Shown: in pieces, positions 10,855 to 16,910 of the stretch
Numbering within the stretch: the stretch's first letter is position 1
Layout of the letters: each line of letters opens with the position of its first letter
Assembly (NCBI GenBank): GCA_003165235.1
Contig: PLSV01000171.1
Location: 1-41,097, forward strand
DNA: 41,097 nt
DNA from: Syntrophobacteraceae bacterium
GTDB taxonomy: Bacteria > Desulfobacterota > Syntrophobacteria > Syntrophobacterales > Syntrophobacteraceae
Direction of reading: 5' to 3'
Notes under the pieces: generated by a model
What the model was told of the DNA's origin: nothing
The model's input: the letters and a program-made list of their open reading frames with translations, nothing else
The model's database searches: none
Program-made: the position numbers and the translations under genes

Positions 10855-11151
10855 ATGGAAAAGCTCACGCCTCACTGGAAGCTATCGGTCGTCAAAGGCA
10901 TGATCCAGGCAGGCAGGGTGCGGATAACTCTGTCGGCGCTTGCAGGCGGGGCGGTGTTGGGATTCGATGCGGCCGGCATTTACGGCGTGGTCATGAGGCT
11001 GACGCCGAAGGACTTTTATAAGAGCATGACGACGCACGCCGATAATCGGATCTGGCAAGACGTTTACCGACCTTCAACATCAGCAGGTGAGGCGTATCTG
11101 AAACTGACTGTCGTAGATGAAGTGTTCATCGTGTCTTTTAAGGAGCTATGA
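10855..11151 (+). CDS. mqsR: MqsR toxin (GCU-specific mRNA interferase)
   Basis: A 98-residue protein, the same length as E. coli MqsR and clearly related over its whole length: LTPHWKLSVVKGMIQAG, FYKSMTTHADNRIWQDVYRP and LKLTVVDEVFIVSFKE. The residues that line the active site in the E. coli enzyme (Lys in FYKS, Gln in IWQD, Tyr in EAYLK) are kept. It is a ribosome-independent RNase that cleaves mRNA, mainly at GCU. No clear ribosome site is visible in front of the ATG, so translation may be weak. The toxin comes first and overlaps the antitoxin gene, as in E. coli. Confidence 0.93.
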   Translation: MEKLTPHWKLSVVKGMIQAGRVRITLSALAGGAVLGFDAAGIYGVVMRLTPKDFYKSMTTHADNRIWQDVYRPSTSAGEAYLKLTVVDEVFIVSFKEL

Positions 11152-11555
11152 TCATGAGATGTCCAGTTTGCGGAGTCGCCGAATTGGTGCGCGATACCCG
11201 TGACATGCCTTACATATATAAGGGCGAATCAAAGATCATTTCCATGGTGACGGGTGATTTCTGCTCGGCGTGTGGCGAAGCCGTGCTTGAACAGAGTGAA
11301 GCGGAGCGTATCAGTTCGTTGATGCTGGAGTTCAACAAGCAGGTGAACGCTTCCTTTGTTGATCCCGCATTCATTGCGGCTGTGCGCAAGAAGCTTGCTC
11401 TCGATCAACGAGAAGCCGGCAAGATTTTCGGCGGCGGCGTCAATGCATTTTCACGTTATGAAAACGGCAAGACCAAGCCGCCTCTGGCGCTGGTGAAACT
11501 GCTCAAGCTGCTTGATCGTCACCCGGACCTTCTAGCGGAAATCAGATCGACTTAG
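11148..11555 (+). CDS. mqsA: MqsA antitoxin and autorepressor
   Basis: A 135-residue protein. It starts in an ATGA overlap with the end of mqsR; a second ATG at 11154 gives MRCPVCG, which matches the family better. The N-terminal zinc domain has CPVC and CSAC, which bind the structural zinc and cover the toxin. The C-terminal XRE-type helix-turn-helix contains IFGGGVNAFSRYENGKTKP, almost identical to E. coli MqsA. It neutralises MqsR and represses its own promoter, probably through the palindrome at 10828. The pair sits between housekeeping genes of opposite orientation, consistent with insertion of an accessory module. Confidence 0.93.
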   Translation: MIMRCPVCGVAELVRDTRDMPYIYKGESKIISMVTGDFCSACGEAVLEQSEAERISSLMLEFNKQVNASFVDPAFIAAVRKKLALDQREAGKIFGGGVNAFSRYENGKTKPPLALVKLLKLLDRHPDLLAEIRST

Positions 11556-11727: not shown

Positions 11728-12450
11728 TCATTCTTCTTTGTGCCGGCTTCCAAAAAGGGCCGTCCCGATTCGCACAAGCGTAGCTCCCTCCTCTATGGCC
11801 ACCTCAAAATCGCCGCTCATGCCCATTGAAAGCTCGGTCAGCCTTTCGGGGCGGGGGGACGTGCGCCTGAGCGAATCCATGAATGCGCGCATCTGCCTGA
11901 AGTAAGGTCTCGCCCGTTCCGGCTGGTCGAAAAAGGGCGGCAGGGCCATCAATCCTCGTACATCCAGCCAGTCAAAACCCGACACAAGTTTGAAGAAAGA
12001 ATTCAGCTCGTCGGGCCGTATGCCGCTCTTGGTCTCTTCGCCCCCAATATTTACCTGGATCAGGACCGCAACCTTTCTGCCCGCAATCTCGGCCCTGCGG
12101 TCAAGCTCGATTGCAAGGGCCTCGCGGTCCAGCGTTTCAATCCAGTCGCAGCACTCGACGGCCGTCTTCGCCTTGTTTGTCTGCAAGCGCCCGATGCAGT
12201 GCCAGGAAACCGGAAGCCCCGCCAGCGCCTCCCTCTTTCTCTTCGCCTCCTGGATGTAATTCTCGCCGAGAATATCTATTCCAGCTTCTATTCCCTCGCG
12301 GATTCTCTCAATAGGGACCGTCTTGGTCACGCCGACCAGCTTCACCCCTTCGGGGTCGCGGCCCGCACGTGCGCACGCGGCCTTGATCCGCTCCCGGATG
12401 GCTGCCAGATTGCCGGCAACCTCTGTTCTCACCTCAGCAATTCTTCCCAC
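11728..12450 (-). CDS. yggS: PLP homeostasis protein (YggS/PROSC family)
   Basis: A 240-residue protein with a GTG start at 12450 behind a strong GGAGG site (6 nt). Its first base is the last base of the TAG that ends the thiS remnant, so the two are translationally coupled. The protein is a single-domain alanine-racemase-type TIM barrel: Lys43 in KLVGVTKTV binds PLP, and ILGENYIQEA, WHCIGRLQTNK, LIQVNIGGEETKSG and LSMGMSGDFEVAI are family motifs. It buffers free PLP and affects amino-acid and vitamin B6 metabolism; no enzymatic reaction is known. By position it is the only intact gene downstream of a TPP riboswitch, which is unusual. Confidence 0.93.
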   Translation of the reverse strand: MGRIAEVRTEVAGNLAAIRERIKAACARAGRDPEGVKLVGVTKTVPIERIREGIEAGIDILGENYIQEAKRKREALAGLPVSWHCIGRLQTNKAKTAVECCDWIETLDREALAIELDRRAEIAGRKVAVLIQVNIGGEETKSGIRPDELNSFFKLVSGFDWLDVRGLMALPPFFDQPERARPYFRQMRAFMDSLRRTSPRPERLTELSMGMSGDFEVAIEEGATLVRIGTALFGSRHKEE

Positions 12451-12605
12451 TAACCCCCTCCAACCAGCCTGACTATCTCAAATGCGTCTCCCGATTCGAC
12501 GGGTTCACTTTCCATCAGGCTTCGGGGAACGATTCTTTTGATTTTGCTTTCGTCCGATAAACTAAAAAGACCGTACCCCCACGGCAGGGAGACGGTCCTG
12601 TGCAC
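12450..12605 (-). pseudogene. Truncated thiS (sulfur carrier), C-terminal half only
   Basis: A minus-strand frame ends in KIKRIVPRSLMESEPV and then GDAFEIVRLVGGG, followed by TAG. This matches the second half of ThiS, where VPRS, the GD turn and the C-terminal Gly-Gly (thiocarboxylated for thiazole synthesis) are typical. The first half, about 30 residues with the start of the ubiquitin-like fold, is missing. Reading upstream, the frame passes straight into the terminator stem. A GTG at 12605, 9 nt after AAAGG, would open a 51-codon frame, but the first 20 residues would be encoded by the terminator. It is therefore most likely a deletion remnant that still serves to couple yggS. It is absent from ordinary ORF lists because it lacks an ATG. 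Confidence 0.6.
12562..12597 (-). terminator. Intrinsic terminator, expression platform of the TPP riboswitch
   Basis: On the minus strand GACCGT...ACGGTC pairs as an outer 6-bp stem, with TCCC/GGGG pairing inside, followed by TTTTTAGTTT. It lies about 30 nt after the aptamer and before the thiS remnant, the classic arrangement for TPP-dependent transcription termination. Confidence 0.75.
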
Positions 12606-12625
12606 AGCTATCAACCTTTTTCACA

Positions 12626-12711
12626 AGCCATTTTCCTGCGCTGGCATTGCCCAGATCAGGTGTATCGAGGGCTTTTCTCAGCCCGGCTCTAGACGGGCGC
12701 CCCTAACGGCT
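12626..12711 (-). promoter_or_regulatory. TPP riboswitch (THI element) aptamer
   Basis: The minus strand contains, in order, the conserved parts of the thiamine pyrophosphate aptamer: AGGGGCGCC, GGGCTGAGA, ACCTGATCTGGG and AATGCCAGCGCAGGAA. The closing P1 helix pairs AGCCGTT (12711-12705) with AATGGCT (12632-12626) with one G-U pair. A promoter ends 14 nt upstream and a terminator follows. Such elements shut off thiamine biosynthesis or transport genes when TPP binds. Here the downstream genes are a truncated thiS and yggS. Confidence 0.93.
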
Positions 12712-12724
12712 GTCAGCCAAAAAA

Positions 12725-12753
12725 ATCTTAATGCGAGTCTGCAATATTGTCAA
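12725..12753 (-). promoter_or_regulatory. Sigma-70 promoter of the riboswitch transcript
   Basis: On the minus strand: exact TTGACA (12753-12748), a 17-bp spacer, TAAGAT (12730-12725). The start would fall near 12718, a few bases before the aptamer. The riboswitch therefore has its own promoter and does not depend on read-through from the thiolase remnant. Confidence 0.75.
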
Positions 12754-12782: not shown

Positions 12783-14047
12783 TCAGGATGCACCTTCCAA
12801 GACGATGGCCACTCCCTGGCCTCCGCCCCCGCAGATTGTCTCGAGCCCGAAAGTTGCGCCCCGCCGTCGCATTTCATTCACAAGGGTCACCATTCGCATT
12901 GTGCCGGTAGCGCCAATCGGGTGCCCAAGCGAAATTTCCGAACCATTGACGTTTACCTTGAGATCACGTTCCCGCTCGGTAAGGCCCATGATCTTGGCTC
13001 GGCAAGCATCTGAGCGGCAAACACCTCCTGAATCTAGATCAGCGCGCAATCGTCCAATGCCAGGCCTGCTTTGAGAAGAGCCTTATCGACCGCCGTTTTG
13101 ACGGCCGGGTAGGTCAAGGTTGGATCGCAGGCCGCATTGCCGCCCGCTATGAATCGGGCAAGGGGTTTAATTCCCATTTCGCGGGCCAGACTCTCAGAGG
13201 CAAGCACGACTGCCGCTGCTCCGTCGTTTTCCGAAGAAGAATTCCCGGCCGTGCATATGCCGCCGGGATAGACTGCTTTGAGCCTAGCCAGTCTCTCGAT
13301 GCTGGCGCCCGGGCGAGGGGTTTCGTCTTCGATGAAAAAGCCCTTCCGGCCTTTTTCCAGTGAGATCGGGACCGGGACGATTTCTTCCGCGAACTTACCC
13401 TGCTTAACGGCGGCGCAGGCCCGCTGATGACTTCTGAGTGCCCACTCGTCGGCAGACTGCCTGGTAATGCCCTCTGCTTTTGCCGCAGCTTCCGCCCACG
13501 TCATCATCGAATCGAGCTCGTCGTAGCGTTCGACCGGCTGAGACATCACGCGGGCGCGCTGAATGCGGTCGAAAAAGGGGAGCCCCCACATCGGAAGCGC
13601 TCCATGGCCCCGTGGCATGAAGCCCCATTTTTGGTCCATGCGGCCTCCCAATCCCCACCGGATATCCCCCGGCAGGTAGAGCTCGGCCTGGCTCATCGAT
13701 TCCAGGCCGCCGGCTGCAACTACCCTGGCGTTACCCGTCTGGATTTTGAGTGCGGCGAAAATGATGCTGTCAACGCCCGAGCAACAGCGCCGATCAATGG
13801 TAACGGCGGGAACCGCTTCAGGCCAACCCGCAGCCAGGACGGCGAACCTTGCGGCATTGGCGCATTCTCCATTCTGGTAGGATTGGCCCATAACGACCTC
13901 TTCCACCTGGGCGGGTTGAATGCCGGCCCGCTTGACGGCCTCATTGAGGACCAAAGCTCCGAGTTCATAGACCGGGACGGCTTTGAGACTTCCTCCGAAG
14001 GCGCCAATAGGCGTGCGCACCCCGGAAAGGATGACTGCTTTTTCCAT
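12783..14047 (-). pseudogene. Decayed acetyl-CoA acetyltransferase (thiolase), one nonsense codon and one frameshift
   Basis: From ATG at 14047 (GGAGG 8 nt upstream) the frame encodes a thiolase with the nucleophilic cysteine in DRRCCSGVDS, but ends at TAG (13036-13034) right after LDDCALI. The family has Glu there (LIEINEAFAAQ), so a GAG-to-TAG change fits. Translation past the stop gives [12 protein letters not shown] and then leaves register. [28 protein letters not shown] and the end [15 protein letters not shown] continue in another frame from about 13005. The total of 1265 nt is one short of 422 codons, consistent with a 1-nt deletion. Two lesions about 35 nt apart remove the His and C-terminal Cys active-site regions. 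The intact fadI lies 4 kb away. Confidence 0.85.
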
Positions 14048-14216
14048 TATCTCGCCCTCCATCAGCGGCGGGCGGCGAGGCGCCGCAGCCGGGATTATCG
14101 CTCGGGAGCGCGCCGCCGGCCCCGGATCGGGTCCGGGGGGTTGGCGCGATCGTGCGTCTGAAGTCCCCCTTTTTTAGGGGTGGACTTAGAGGGATTTTTA
14201 AAGCGGTAAGTCTTCT

Positions 14217-15099
14217 CTAAGCGGACTTCTTCTTCATGCTTCCGTCCGGATTGTATTCGTACCAGCCTCTGCCGGTCTTCCTGCCCAGATGTCCCATTTT
14301 TACCTTCAGCCGAAGAATGGCCGGCGGGTAGAAAGAAGAATCTCTTGTTTCCTCATAGATTGACATCAGGGCGCCATAGGTCACGTCCAGGCCTACCATG
14401 TCGCCGATTTCAAAAGGCCCCATCTTCCTTCCGGAGGCCAGCCGCAGCCCTTTGTCGATATCTTCCACGGTGGTCACCCCATCCTCGACCAGGCGCATCG
14501 CCTCGATATTGGCCCTGTAATTAATGCGATTGATGACGAAACCCGGAATATCACGCTTAACCAGTATAGGCTCCTTTCCGACCTGCCTGACGAAAGCTGC
14601 GCCTGAAGCAAAGGTCTCTTCGCTGGTGTGCGTTCCTCTTATCACTTCCGCTGCAGCCATCATCGGCACAGGAGAAAAGAAATGGATGCCCAGCACCTTG
14701 TCGGCGCGCCGCGTCTCTGCCGCCAGGCAGGAAATGGAAATTGCGCTTGTGTTGCTCGCAAGGATTGCGCCGGGGTTTGCCGCACTGTCCAGCTTGCGGA
14801 AAATCTCGCGTTTCAGGTCCAGGTTTTCAAAAACTGCCTCGATAACCAGATCGGCCTCACTTGCAGCTTCCATACTGCCCGACGTGCCGATGCGCGACGT
14901 GATCGCCTCCGCCGGGCCAGCCACAGATCCCTTTTCCACAAGCTTGCCGACTGACCACGATATGCTTTTCAGGGCCTTTTCGACAGCTTCGGGTTTCTCG
15001 TCGTGCAGGGCCACACTCAGCCCTGCCTGGGCGCATACCTGTGCTATGGCCGCTGCCCATCAGTCCGCTTCCAACTATGAACACCCTGGCGATGCTCAT
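14217..15099 (-). pseudogene. 3-hydroxyacyl-CoA dehydrogenase with a +1 frameshift in the NAD-binding motif
   Basis: The start MSIARVFIVGSGLMGSG (ATG at 15099, ribosome site AGGAAAGGA) is in one frame. The rest, IAQVCAQAGLSVALHDEKP onward, including the catalytic motif LGIHFFSPVPMM, SNTSAIS and KTGRGWYEYNP, is in another. Removing one C of the GGCC at 15048-15051 joins the two exactly inside the GxGxxG dinucleotide-binding loop. The length of 883 nt (294 codons plus one) agrees with a 1-nt insertion. As written, a product starting at an internal codon would lack the Rossmann loop and could not bind NAD. It lies 169 nt upstream of the broken thiolase on the same strand, so the two probably formed one operon. 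A sequencing error is possible for this single lesion. Confidence 0.8.
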
Positions 15100-15251
15100 C
15101 ACGTTCCTTTCCTGTTTATAGCACTTCAATCGCGCCCTCAATCCCCGGCAGCGCTCCCCGGGGCGATAACGCATCGATCTGCTCGCCGGGATCCCTCAGG
15201 ATCAAACGCTGTGGATGGACTTCGAACAAAATCCCGTCCGAAACTCGCAAA

Positions 15252-15786: not shown

Positions 15787-15925
15787 AGGGAAATGTGAGA
15801 CTGGAAATCGGATAGCTACAGGAATCGAATGAGAGAGGTTGACTTGGGGCCGCGAAAAAGCTATTAACCTGCGTCAAAAAAATTACTTGCTTCAGGGAAT
15901 AGAACAAAATGAGGTCGCCGGCAAA

Positions 15926-16519
15926 ATGAACAGCAAATACATTGAGGTGAGATGGCACGGTCGCGGTGGTCAGGGCGCGGTCACGGCTGCTGAGATTCTG
16001 GCTCAAGCCGCCTACTACGACGGGTACAAGGGAGTAACAGCCGCTCCGTTCTTCGGGGCCGAAAGAAGAGGCGCTCCTGTCATCGCCTCAAACAGGTTTG
16101 CGCGCGAGCCGGTGAGGACCTTCTCCCTGGTTCAGAAGCCTGCGGTGGTGGTCGTGCTCGACGACACCATACTGCGCGTGGTGGACGTCGCAGCAGGAAT
16201 CCAACCGGACGGCATCGTTATTATAAACAGCCGGAAATCGCCCGATCAGATAGGTTTGCCGTCGCACCTGCGGGTTGCAGTGACTGACGCAACGCAGTGG
16301 GCCATAGAAGCCGGCCTCATTATCTCCGGGGCGGTCATGTTCAATACGGCGATTTTGGGCGGGTTCTCCAAGGCCACCGGACTTATTGGCATGGAAAGCA
16401 TCGAAAAGGCCCTGAGAAACCATTTCAAGGGTGATGAGGGCCAAAAGAATGTGCTTGGCGCAAGGCTGGCGTGCAAGGGAACCATTGTTTCCAGGACCAC
16501 GGGGAATGGCTGCTCCTGA
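15926..16519 (+). CDS. 2-oxoacid:ferredoxin oxidoreductase, gamma subunit
   Basis: A 197-residue protein. The ATG at 15926 (MNSKYIEVRWHGRGGQG) matches where gamma subunits begin and follows GAGG; an upstream TTG at 15839 would overlap the promoter leader. WHGRGGQGAVTAAEILA, FFGAERRGAPV and ISGAVMFNTAILGGF are typical of the PorC/KorC family. In the complete enzyme this subunit works with alpha, beta and a ferredoxin-like delta to decarboxylate pyruvate or another 2-oxoacid to acyl-CoA and reduced ferredoxin. The delta gene follows after 88 nt, but no alpha or beta gene is present. The substrate cannot be assigned. Confidence 0.88.
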   Translation: MNSKYIEVRWHGRGGQGAVTAAEILAQAAYYDGYKGVTAAPFFGAERRGAPVIASNRFAREPVRTFSLVQKPAVVVVLDDTILRVVDVAAGIQPDGIVIINSRKSPDQIGLPSHLRVAVTDATQWAIEAGLIISGAVMFNTAILGGFSKATGLIGMESIEKALRNHFKGDEGQKNVLGARLACKGTIVSRTTGNGCS

Positions 16520-16607
16520 TTTATTCCACCGGCCGGCTTGGGGAGCTTTCCTTTGTTCCCTTTAGCCGCAAAGACGCTTGGCGCGCTAATAATAAAAGGA
16601 AGATTAC

Positions 16608-16910
16608 ATGGAATCCAGCAAAGCTCATCAAGACCCCTTTACAGTTGCCAGAGGAAAACTTTGCACGGCTGAGGCCGGAATGACCGGCGACTGGAGATCC
16701 TCGCGACCTGAAATAGACAGCTCGAAATGCATTCTGTCCAAAACAGGAAACAAACCCTGTTTTCTTTGCTGGATGTATTGCCCCGAGGGAATCGTCACGA
16801 AGTCCATCCCTGTGAAAATCGACTATGATTACTGCAAGGGATGCGGCATCTGCGCGCAGGAGTGCCCTGCCAAAGCGATCCGGATGGTTGCCGAGCAAAA
16901 CATCGATTAG
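16608..16910 (+). CDS. 2-oxoacid:ferredoxin oxidoreductase, delta subunit (2x[4Fe-4S] ferredoxin)
   Basis: A 100-residue protein with ribosome site AAAGGAAG. The C-terminal 60 residues carry two [4Fe-4S] binding motifs: CFLCWMYCPEG, with an additional Cys ten residues before it, and CKGCGICAQECPAKAI. The first motif has an expanded gap (CILSKTGNKPC) compared with the usual CxxC start. About 35 N-terminal residues precede it, as in PorD-type subunits. It passes electrons from the catalytic subunits to ferredoxin. Cotranscribed with the gamma gene. With no alpha or beta subunit in the window, the partners must lie elsewhere or the pair is a leftover. Confidence 0.85.
   Translation: MESSKAHQDPFTVARGKLCTAEAGMTGDWRSSRPEIDSSKCILSKTGNKPCFLCWMYCPEGIVTKSIPVKIDYDYCKGCGICAQECPAKAIRMVAEQNID

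Follow-up and report, generated by a model that had tools for sequence, protein, structure and literature searches.

We conclude, with a probability of roughly 60%, that the leader preceding yggS in the window (the whole stretch of 41,097 nucleotides analyzed here) is the remnant of a TPP-riboswitch thiG-thiH-thiS-yggS operon, and that it is still an OFF switch, which now governs yggS alone. According to this model, the lineage would have given up thiazole synthesis and would salvage thiazole via ThiM-ThiE. At low TPP, the 3' strand of the aptamer would pair with the 5' arm of the terminator and yggS would be transcribed; with TPP bound, P1 would form and the terminator would halt transcription ahead of yggS. 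YggS translation would start from a GGAGG sequence within the old thiS end, and the TPP control of yggS would be an inherited one, now without its former partner genes.

A first-pass annotation of this DNA had proposed a TTGACA-17-TAAGAT promoter, a full TPP aptamer with a closed P1 helix and an intrinsic terminator, and all three were confirmed (Table 1). The aptamer scored 57.2 bits with the RF00059 covariance model (gathering cut-off 54.3; model positions 1-105), which places it in this family, and it was the single match at the gathering threshold within the whole window (12714-12616, minus strand). Its P1 was closed in the predicted fold, and the CUGAGA, ACCUGAU and CG-AGG core of the TPP riboswitch was present. 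Both the aptamer and the terminator could be aligned with those of relatives of the same genus, and a -35-like box (TTGACA or TTGACT) stood at the equivalent position in eight of nine aligned relative leaders, the sole exception being G006, whose contig starts at that point. The 5' arm of the terminator was predicted to pair alternatively with the 3' strand of the aptamer, forming an antiterminator. The leader has the aptamer, the P1 switching helix and the intrinsic terminator in common with RF00059 (THI element) systems of the transcription-attenuating type, but differs from them in that yggS is here the full gene directly 3' of the switch.

Table 1. Positions of the leader, the thiS remnant, yggS and the synteny anchor in the window
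Feature	Position	Strand	Basis or remark
yggS (COG0325 PLP-homeostasis protein), 240 aa, intact	11728..12450	-	TIGR00044, PF01168
thiS C-terminal 29 codons and stop, ends GGG	12450..12539	-	in frame, without internal stop
GGAGG, Shine-Dalgarno-like, within thiS remnant, 6 bases 5' of yggS GTG	12457..12461	-	sequence; putative function
Deletion junction	12540..12563	-	about 2.0-2.1 kb (thiG-thiH-5' thiS of relatives) absent
Intrinsic terminator, hairpin 12599-12567 and T-run	12564..12599	-	-20.8 kcal/mol, z -3.0
TPP riboswitch aptamer RF00059, without optional P3a stem	12616..12714	-	covariance-model match
Sigma-70-type promoter TTGACA-17-TAAGAT	12725..12753	-	10/12 consensus letters; chance expectation by shuffling 0.2 sites
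2-oxoacid:ferredoxin oxidoreductase gamma and delta subunits, synteny anchor	15839..16910	+	profile matches

The yggS product matched TIGR00044 over its full length (positions 5-229 of 229; 200.3 bits, cut-off 106.25), and its branch length of 0.2 was not unusually long, since those of other genus members ranged from 0.06 to 0.45. The partial C-terminal ThiS reported earlier, overlapping the yggS GTG by one base, was also recovered: 29 codons of it are recognizable, and base 12450 is common to its stop codon (TAG, 12452-12450) and the GTG of yggS. These 29 residues belong to a 54-codon ORF and align to the C-terminus of the relatives' ThiS. The ORF matched PF02597 at profile positions 50-76 of 76 only (16.7 bits, cut-off 22.5) and TIGR01683 at positions 37-64 only (21.4 bits, cut-off 37.45), scores that fall below the family cut-offs as expected because this is a fragment; a full ThiS domain (about 65 residues above the family cut-off) is absent, and the ORF is a remnant, not a ThiS protein. 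From the T-run to thiS codon 38 there are 24 bases in the window versus 2110, 2109, 2063, 2063 and 2034 in five relatives, the missing stretch starting just 3' of the terminator and ending near thiS codon 37. When compared with the relatives' post-terminator leader and with their thiS codons 21-37, the junction bases gave a consistent match to neither (shuffle fractions of 0.012-0.91 on the leader side and 0.08-0.71 on the thiS side).

We compared the locus with ten further genomes of the genus (G001-G010). In five of these (G001, G006, G007, G009 and G010), a TPP leader, thiG, thiH, thiS (66 aa) and yggS lie on one contig, although that of G001 stops within yggS. These operons resemble the window in their aptamer, terminator and thiS end, which overlaps the yggS start in four of the five and directly adjoins it in G007, but the window is without thiG, thiH and approximately the first 37 codons of thiS, in agreement with the earlier proposal that half of thiS and perhaps other thi genes had been deleted. 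This shared gene order indicates that yggS belonged to the TPP operon before the deletion, and that the deletion made yggS its first gene. The TPP match of G006 (C176; L062 72-172), near a contig end, reached 41.2 bits, below the cut-off, and its 5' half was unlike that of relatives; this poor aptamer is probably a contig-edge error.

The porG gene (gamma subunit) is divergent upstream of the TPP-thiGHS leader and adjoins it in G001, G007, G009, G003 and G008; it is about 1.5 kb away in G010, with a 311-codon frame in between, and the porG side of G006 is not visible because the contig starts too late. In the window, porG is about 3.1 kb upstream of the leader, with thiolase and 3-hydroxyacyl-CoA dehydrogenase genes in between. 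These two genes (12783-14062 and 14217-15174, minus strand) each seem divided between two frames, the N-terminus of the dehydrogenase having been assigned to the second frame by reading the sequence, and they appear to be either pseudogenes or carriers of assembly base errors. The order porG-TPP-thiG-thiH-thiS, with yggS elsewhere, was found in G003 (with one extra frame before thiG) and G008, while G005 and G002 contain a TPP switch and thiG with an additional ThiF-like gene between them (assigned by reading the sequence); yggS is at another place in G005, and a DNA search of G002 did not find it. In G004, an interval of 123 bases separates the divergent porG and yggS genes, and no switch or thiGHS remains there.

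The main competing explanation, possible but in our judgment rather unlikely, is that the deletion is real and the switch a decaying relic, with yggS expressed by read-through or from another promoter. Consistent with such decay, the window aptamer is the lowest-scoring of the 56 above the cut-off (59 matches in all, in 39 genomes of the order), and the A preceding the CCC of P2 is missing, a change unique among the 38 of the 59 aptamers that were read. Its identity to the leaders of G001, G007, G009 and G010 was 72-79%, with a mean of 76.0% (G006 was omitted from these means due to its contig edge); the mean identities of four leaders with thiG behind the switch to the same four were 77.5% (G003), 78.3% (G008), 78.0% (G002) and 81.5% (G005), so that the window aptamer resembled its kin slightly, although not clearly, less than functional aptamers did. 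Furthermore, two A-C mismatches, read from the sequence, weaken the GGGAAA/UUUCCC pairing of the antiterminator helix, and G004 might represent a later stage of the same decay, as no switch remains there between porG and yggS.

However, neither the terminator nor P1 is disrupted in the window, both the CUGAGA and the ACCUGAU core are preserved, and the thiS remnant has diverged no faster than working thiS genes: it was identical to the five operon-bearing relatives at 14-20 of 29 residues, while in the same comparison the working thiS of G008 was identical at 14-17 and that of G003 at 15-19. An aptamer identity that is only slightly lower, together with a thiS remnant that is not faster-changing, fits either a recent deletion or continued use. 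For the antiterminator, we folded the transcript ending before the 3' arm of the terminator and calculated the mean pairing probability of the 11 arm bases with the 3' region of the aptamer. This was 0.62 in the window, 0.84 in G009, 0.80 in G001, 0.48 in G010 and 0.04 in G007, values that are thermodynamic, without ligand or kinetics, and whose limits are shown by the 0.04 obtained for the full operon of G007. The remaining four leaders gave 0.91 (G005 and G003), 0.92 (G008) and 0.99 (G002), and the antiterminator was thus predicted in the window and in seven of eight relatives (mean of at least 0.48). Taken as a whole, the features of the leader suggest that the switch is most likely somewhat worn yet functional.

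The first-pass annotation had held that a thiS of normal length at the corresponding position of related genomes would point to a local assembly deletion; relatives do have such a gene, but other observations argue against that implication. Under that explanation, the living genome would have an intact thiGHS-yggS operon of which the contig dropped about 2 kb, and we consider this decidedly improbable. The genome of the window (G000) is a 7.07-Mb MAG (97.8% complete, 8.9% contamination) in 424 contigs, the two genes neighboring the leader seem frameshifted, and the locus is intact in relatives, all of which would allow an artifact. However, there is no N within the window, and the rest of the assembly argues against it. 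Full-length ThiG (PF05690, 357-368 bits) was found in 9/11 genomes of the genus, but a search of the G000 assembly yielded only 20.8 and 20.7 bits, below the 23-bit cut-off, at ThiE loci. Additionally, a second type of ThiE (73-79% identical to that of G001), present in G002, G003, G005 and G006 as in G001, was absent from the ThiE matches obtained in G000 and G004, and so occurs in 5/5 checked genomes with full ThiG versus 0/2 without. The lack of a full ThiG in the assembly and of the second ThiE type argues for a real loss, and the loss of thiazole synthesis in G000 looks real by these gene contents.

Within the seven genus genomes (G000-G006) in which ThiM and ThiE were examined, G000 carries adjacent thiM (287 bits) and thiE (219 bits) genes. 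Salvage alone is no proof of thiazole loss, because ThiM is also present in three genomes with a full ThiG (G002, G005 and G006); it is absent from G001 and G003. G000 also retains a thiC-like gene (read from the sequence), which has a separate TPP switch of 69.2 bits in front of it. Contig C252 of this genome (L152 2041-2493) contains a truncated salvage-type thiE that covers profile positions 48-180 of 180 and shows 92% identity with the full copy on C56 across 150 residues. We rejected a different location of thiG or thiH in G000, where the best ThiH match was 38% identical and lay in a 499-aa frame, which we read as a HydG-like radical-SAM protein. Full-length Thi4 (PF01946) was not found in the G000 assembly either; it was rejected as a substitute for ThiG, since the best of 21 matches listed reached 35.5 bits over 49 positions versus 242 bits at full length in G004, and only full-length matches were counted, since short ones above the cut-off occur, among the matches listed, in 40/40 genomes.

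The deletion of thiGHS from this locus in G004 likewise speaks against an assembly artifact in G000. The only ThiG match of G004 scored 22.0 bits (24.2 with its neighbors, counted as above the 23-bit cut-off) and overlaps its ThiE. G004 is like the window genome in being without a full ThiG, in having salvage thiM-thiE and in the side of yggS on which porG lies, but unlike it in that both the switch and thiGHS are gone at yggS, and in that Thi4 is present. This Thi4 (C155:1104-2040, L153; 242.2 bits) lies directly behind a TPP switch, and in G004 one thiazole synthase appears to have been replaced by another, in a genus where full ThiG is otherwise usual. A single locus in one genus thus presents stages of pathway loss, namely the whole operon (five genomes), an internal deletion with the switch kept (the window), and a complete loss in a genome that encodes a different thiazole synthase at another site (G004).

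A reading in which TPP control of a B6 gene arose through the deletion itself, which was then favored by selection for this reason, is most improbable and, selection on the solo arrangement aside, largely refuted: yggS is now the sole full gene directly behind the switch, but it already stands behind thiS in the TPP-leader operon of five relatives, contrary to the original claim that the deletion had placed it under TPP control. What the window offers is therefore a snapshot of pathway loss and no newly invented link. In the five intact relatives, yggS is one of the genes that follow a TPP leader, and this offers a connection from B1 sensing to B6 homeostasis that can be tested. We propose only tentatively that YggS abundance in this genus is purposely set by the TPP level, at first within thiGHS-yggS, and that in the lineage of the window selection kept this B1-to-B6 cross-control after the loss of the thiazole genes. 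Thiazole and PLP synthesis both use deoxyxylulose 5-phosphate, the product of a TPP enzyme, which is a possible rationale for such cross-control.

In order to place the linkage more widely, we used 80 yggS loci, 773 kb in total and all of named genomes, drawn from the matches listed, a sample from which close kin of the window may be missing; the three best by E-value among these matches were 50-55% identical and came from Deltaproteobacteria, Desulfobacteraceae and Syntrophobacterales MAGs. In tblastn searches that detected their positive controls, thiG, thiH, thiS, thiE, thiC or porG was near yggS in 0/80 loci, and the same loci contained no clear TPP element reading into yggS. Because none of them showed thi or por genes or such a leader, the yggS-TPP operon linkage appears, in the 80-locus sample, to be confined to this genus. 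Weak TPP-like matches in L113 (E 0.35) and L096 (E 0.51) were taken as chance, and a clear TPP-like match near yggS in Candidatus Carbobacillus altaicus (L094 4427-4509, minus strand) is oriented away from yggS. The portions available of the literature searched (including PMC6522883, PMC13353753 and PMC2258182) yielded no TPP switch tied to yggS/COG0325; the query 'thiS' also matches 'this'.

The age of the arrangement was evaluated with RpoB and YggS trees. The RpoB tree (14 rows; G003, G008 and G010 had no match, and the G000 row was 46% filled) grouped G001, G004, G006, G007 and G009 (96/96) apart from G000, G005 and G002, for which it gave no branching order. In the YggS tree the same five were joined by G010 (100/99), again apart from G000 and G005. 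These groupings therefore suggest, most simply, that TPP-thiGHS-yggS is older than the split of G000 from the G001/G004/G006/G007/G009 group, and that G004 lost it inside that group. On the far side of yggS, rlmB and gmk are found in G000 and, judging by similarity, also in G005, with other genes in G009, G010 and G004; this differing gene order means that rearrangement also occurred. In the window, an MqsR/MqsA toxin-antitoxin pair (10855-11555, plus strand) lies between rlmB and yggS.
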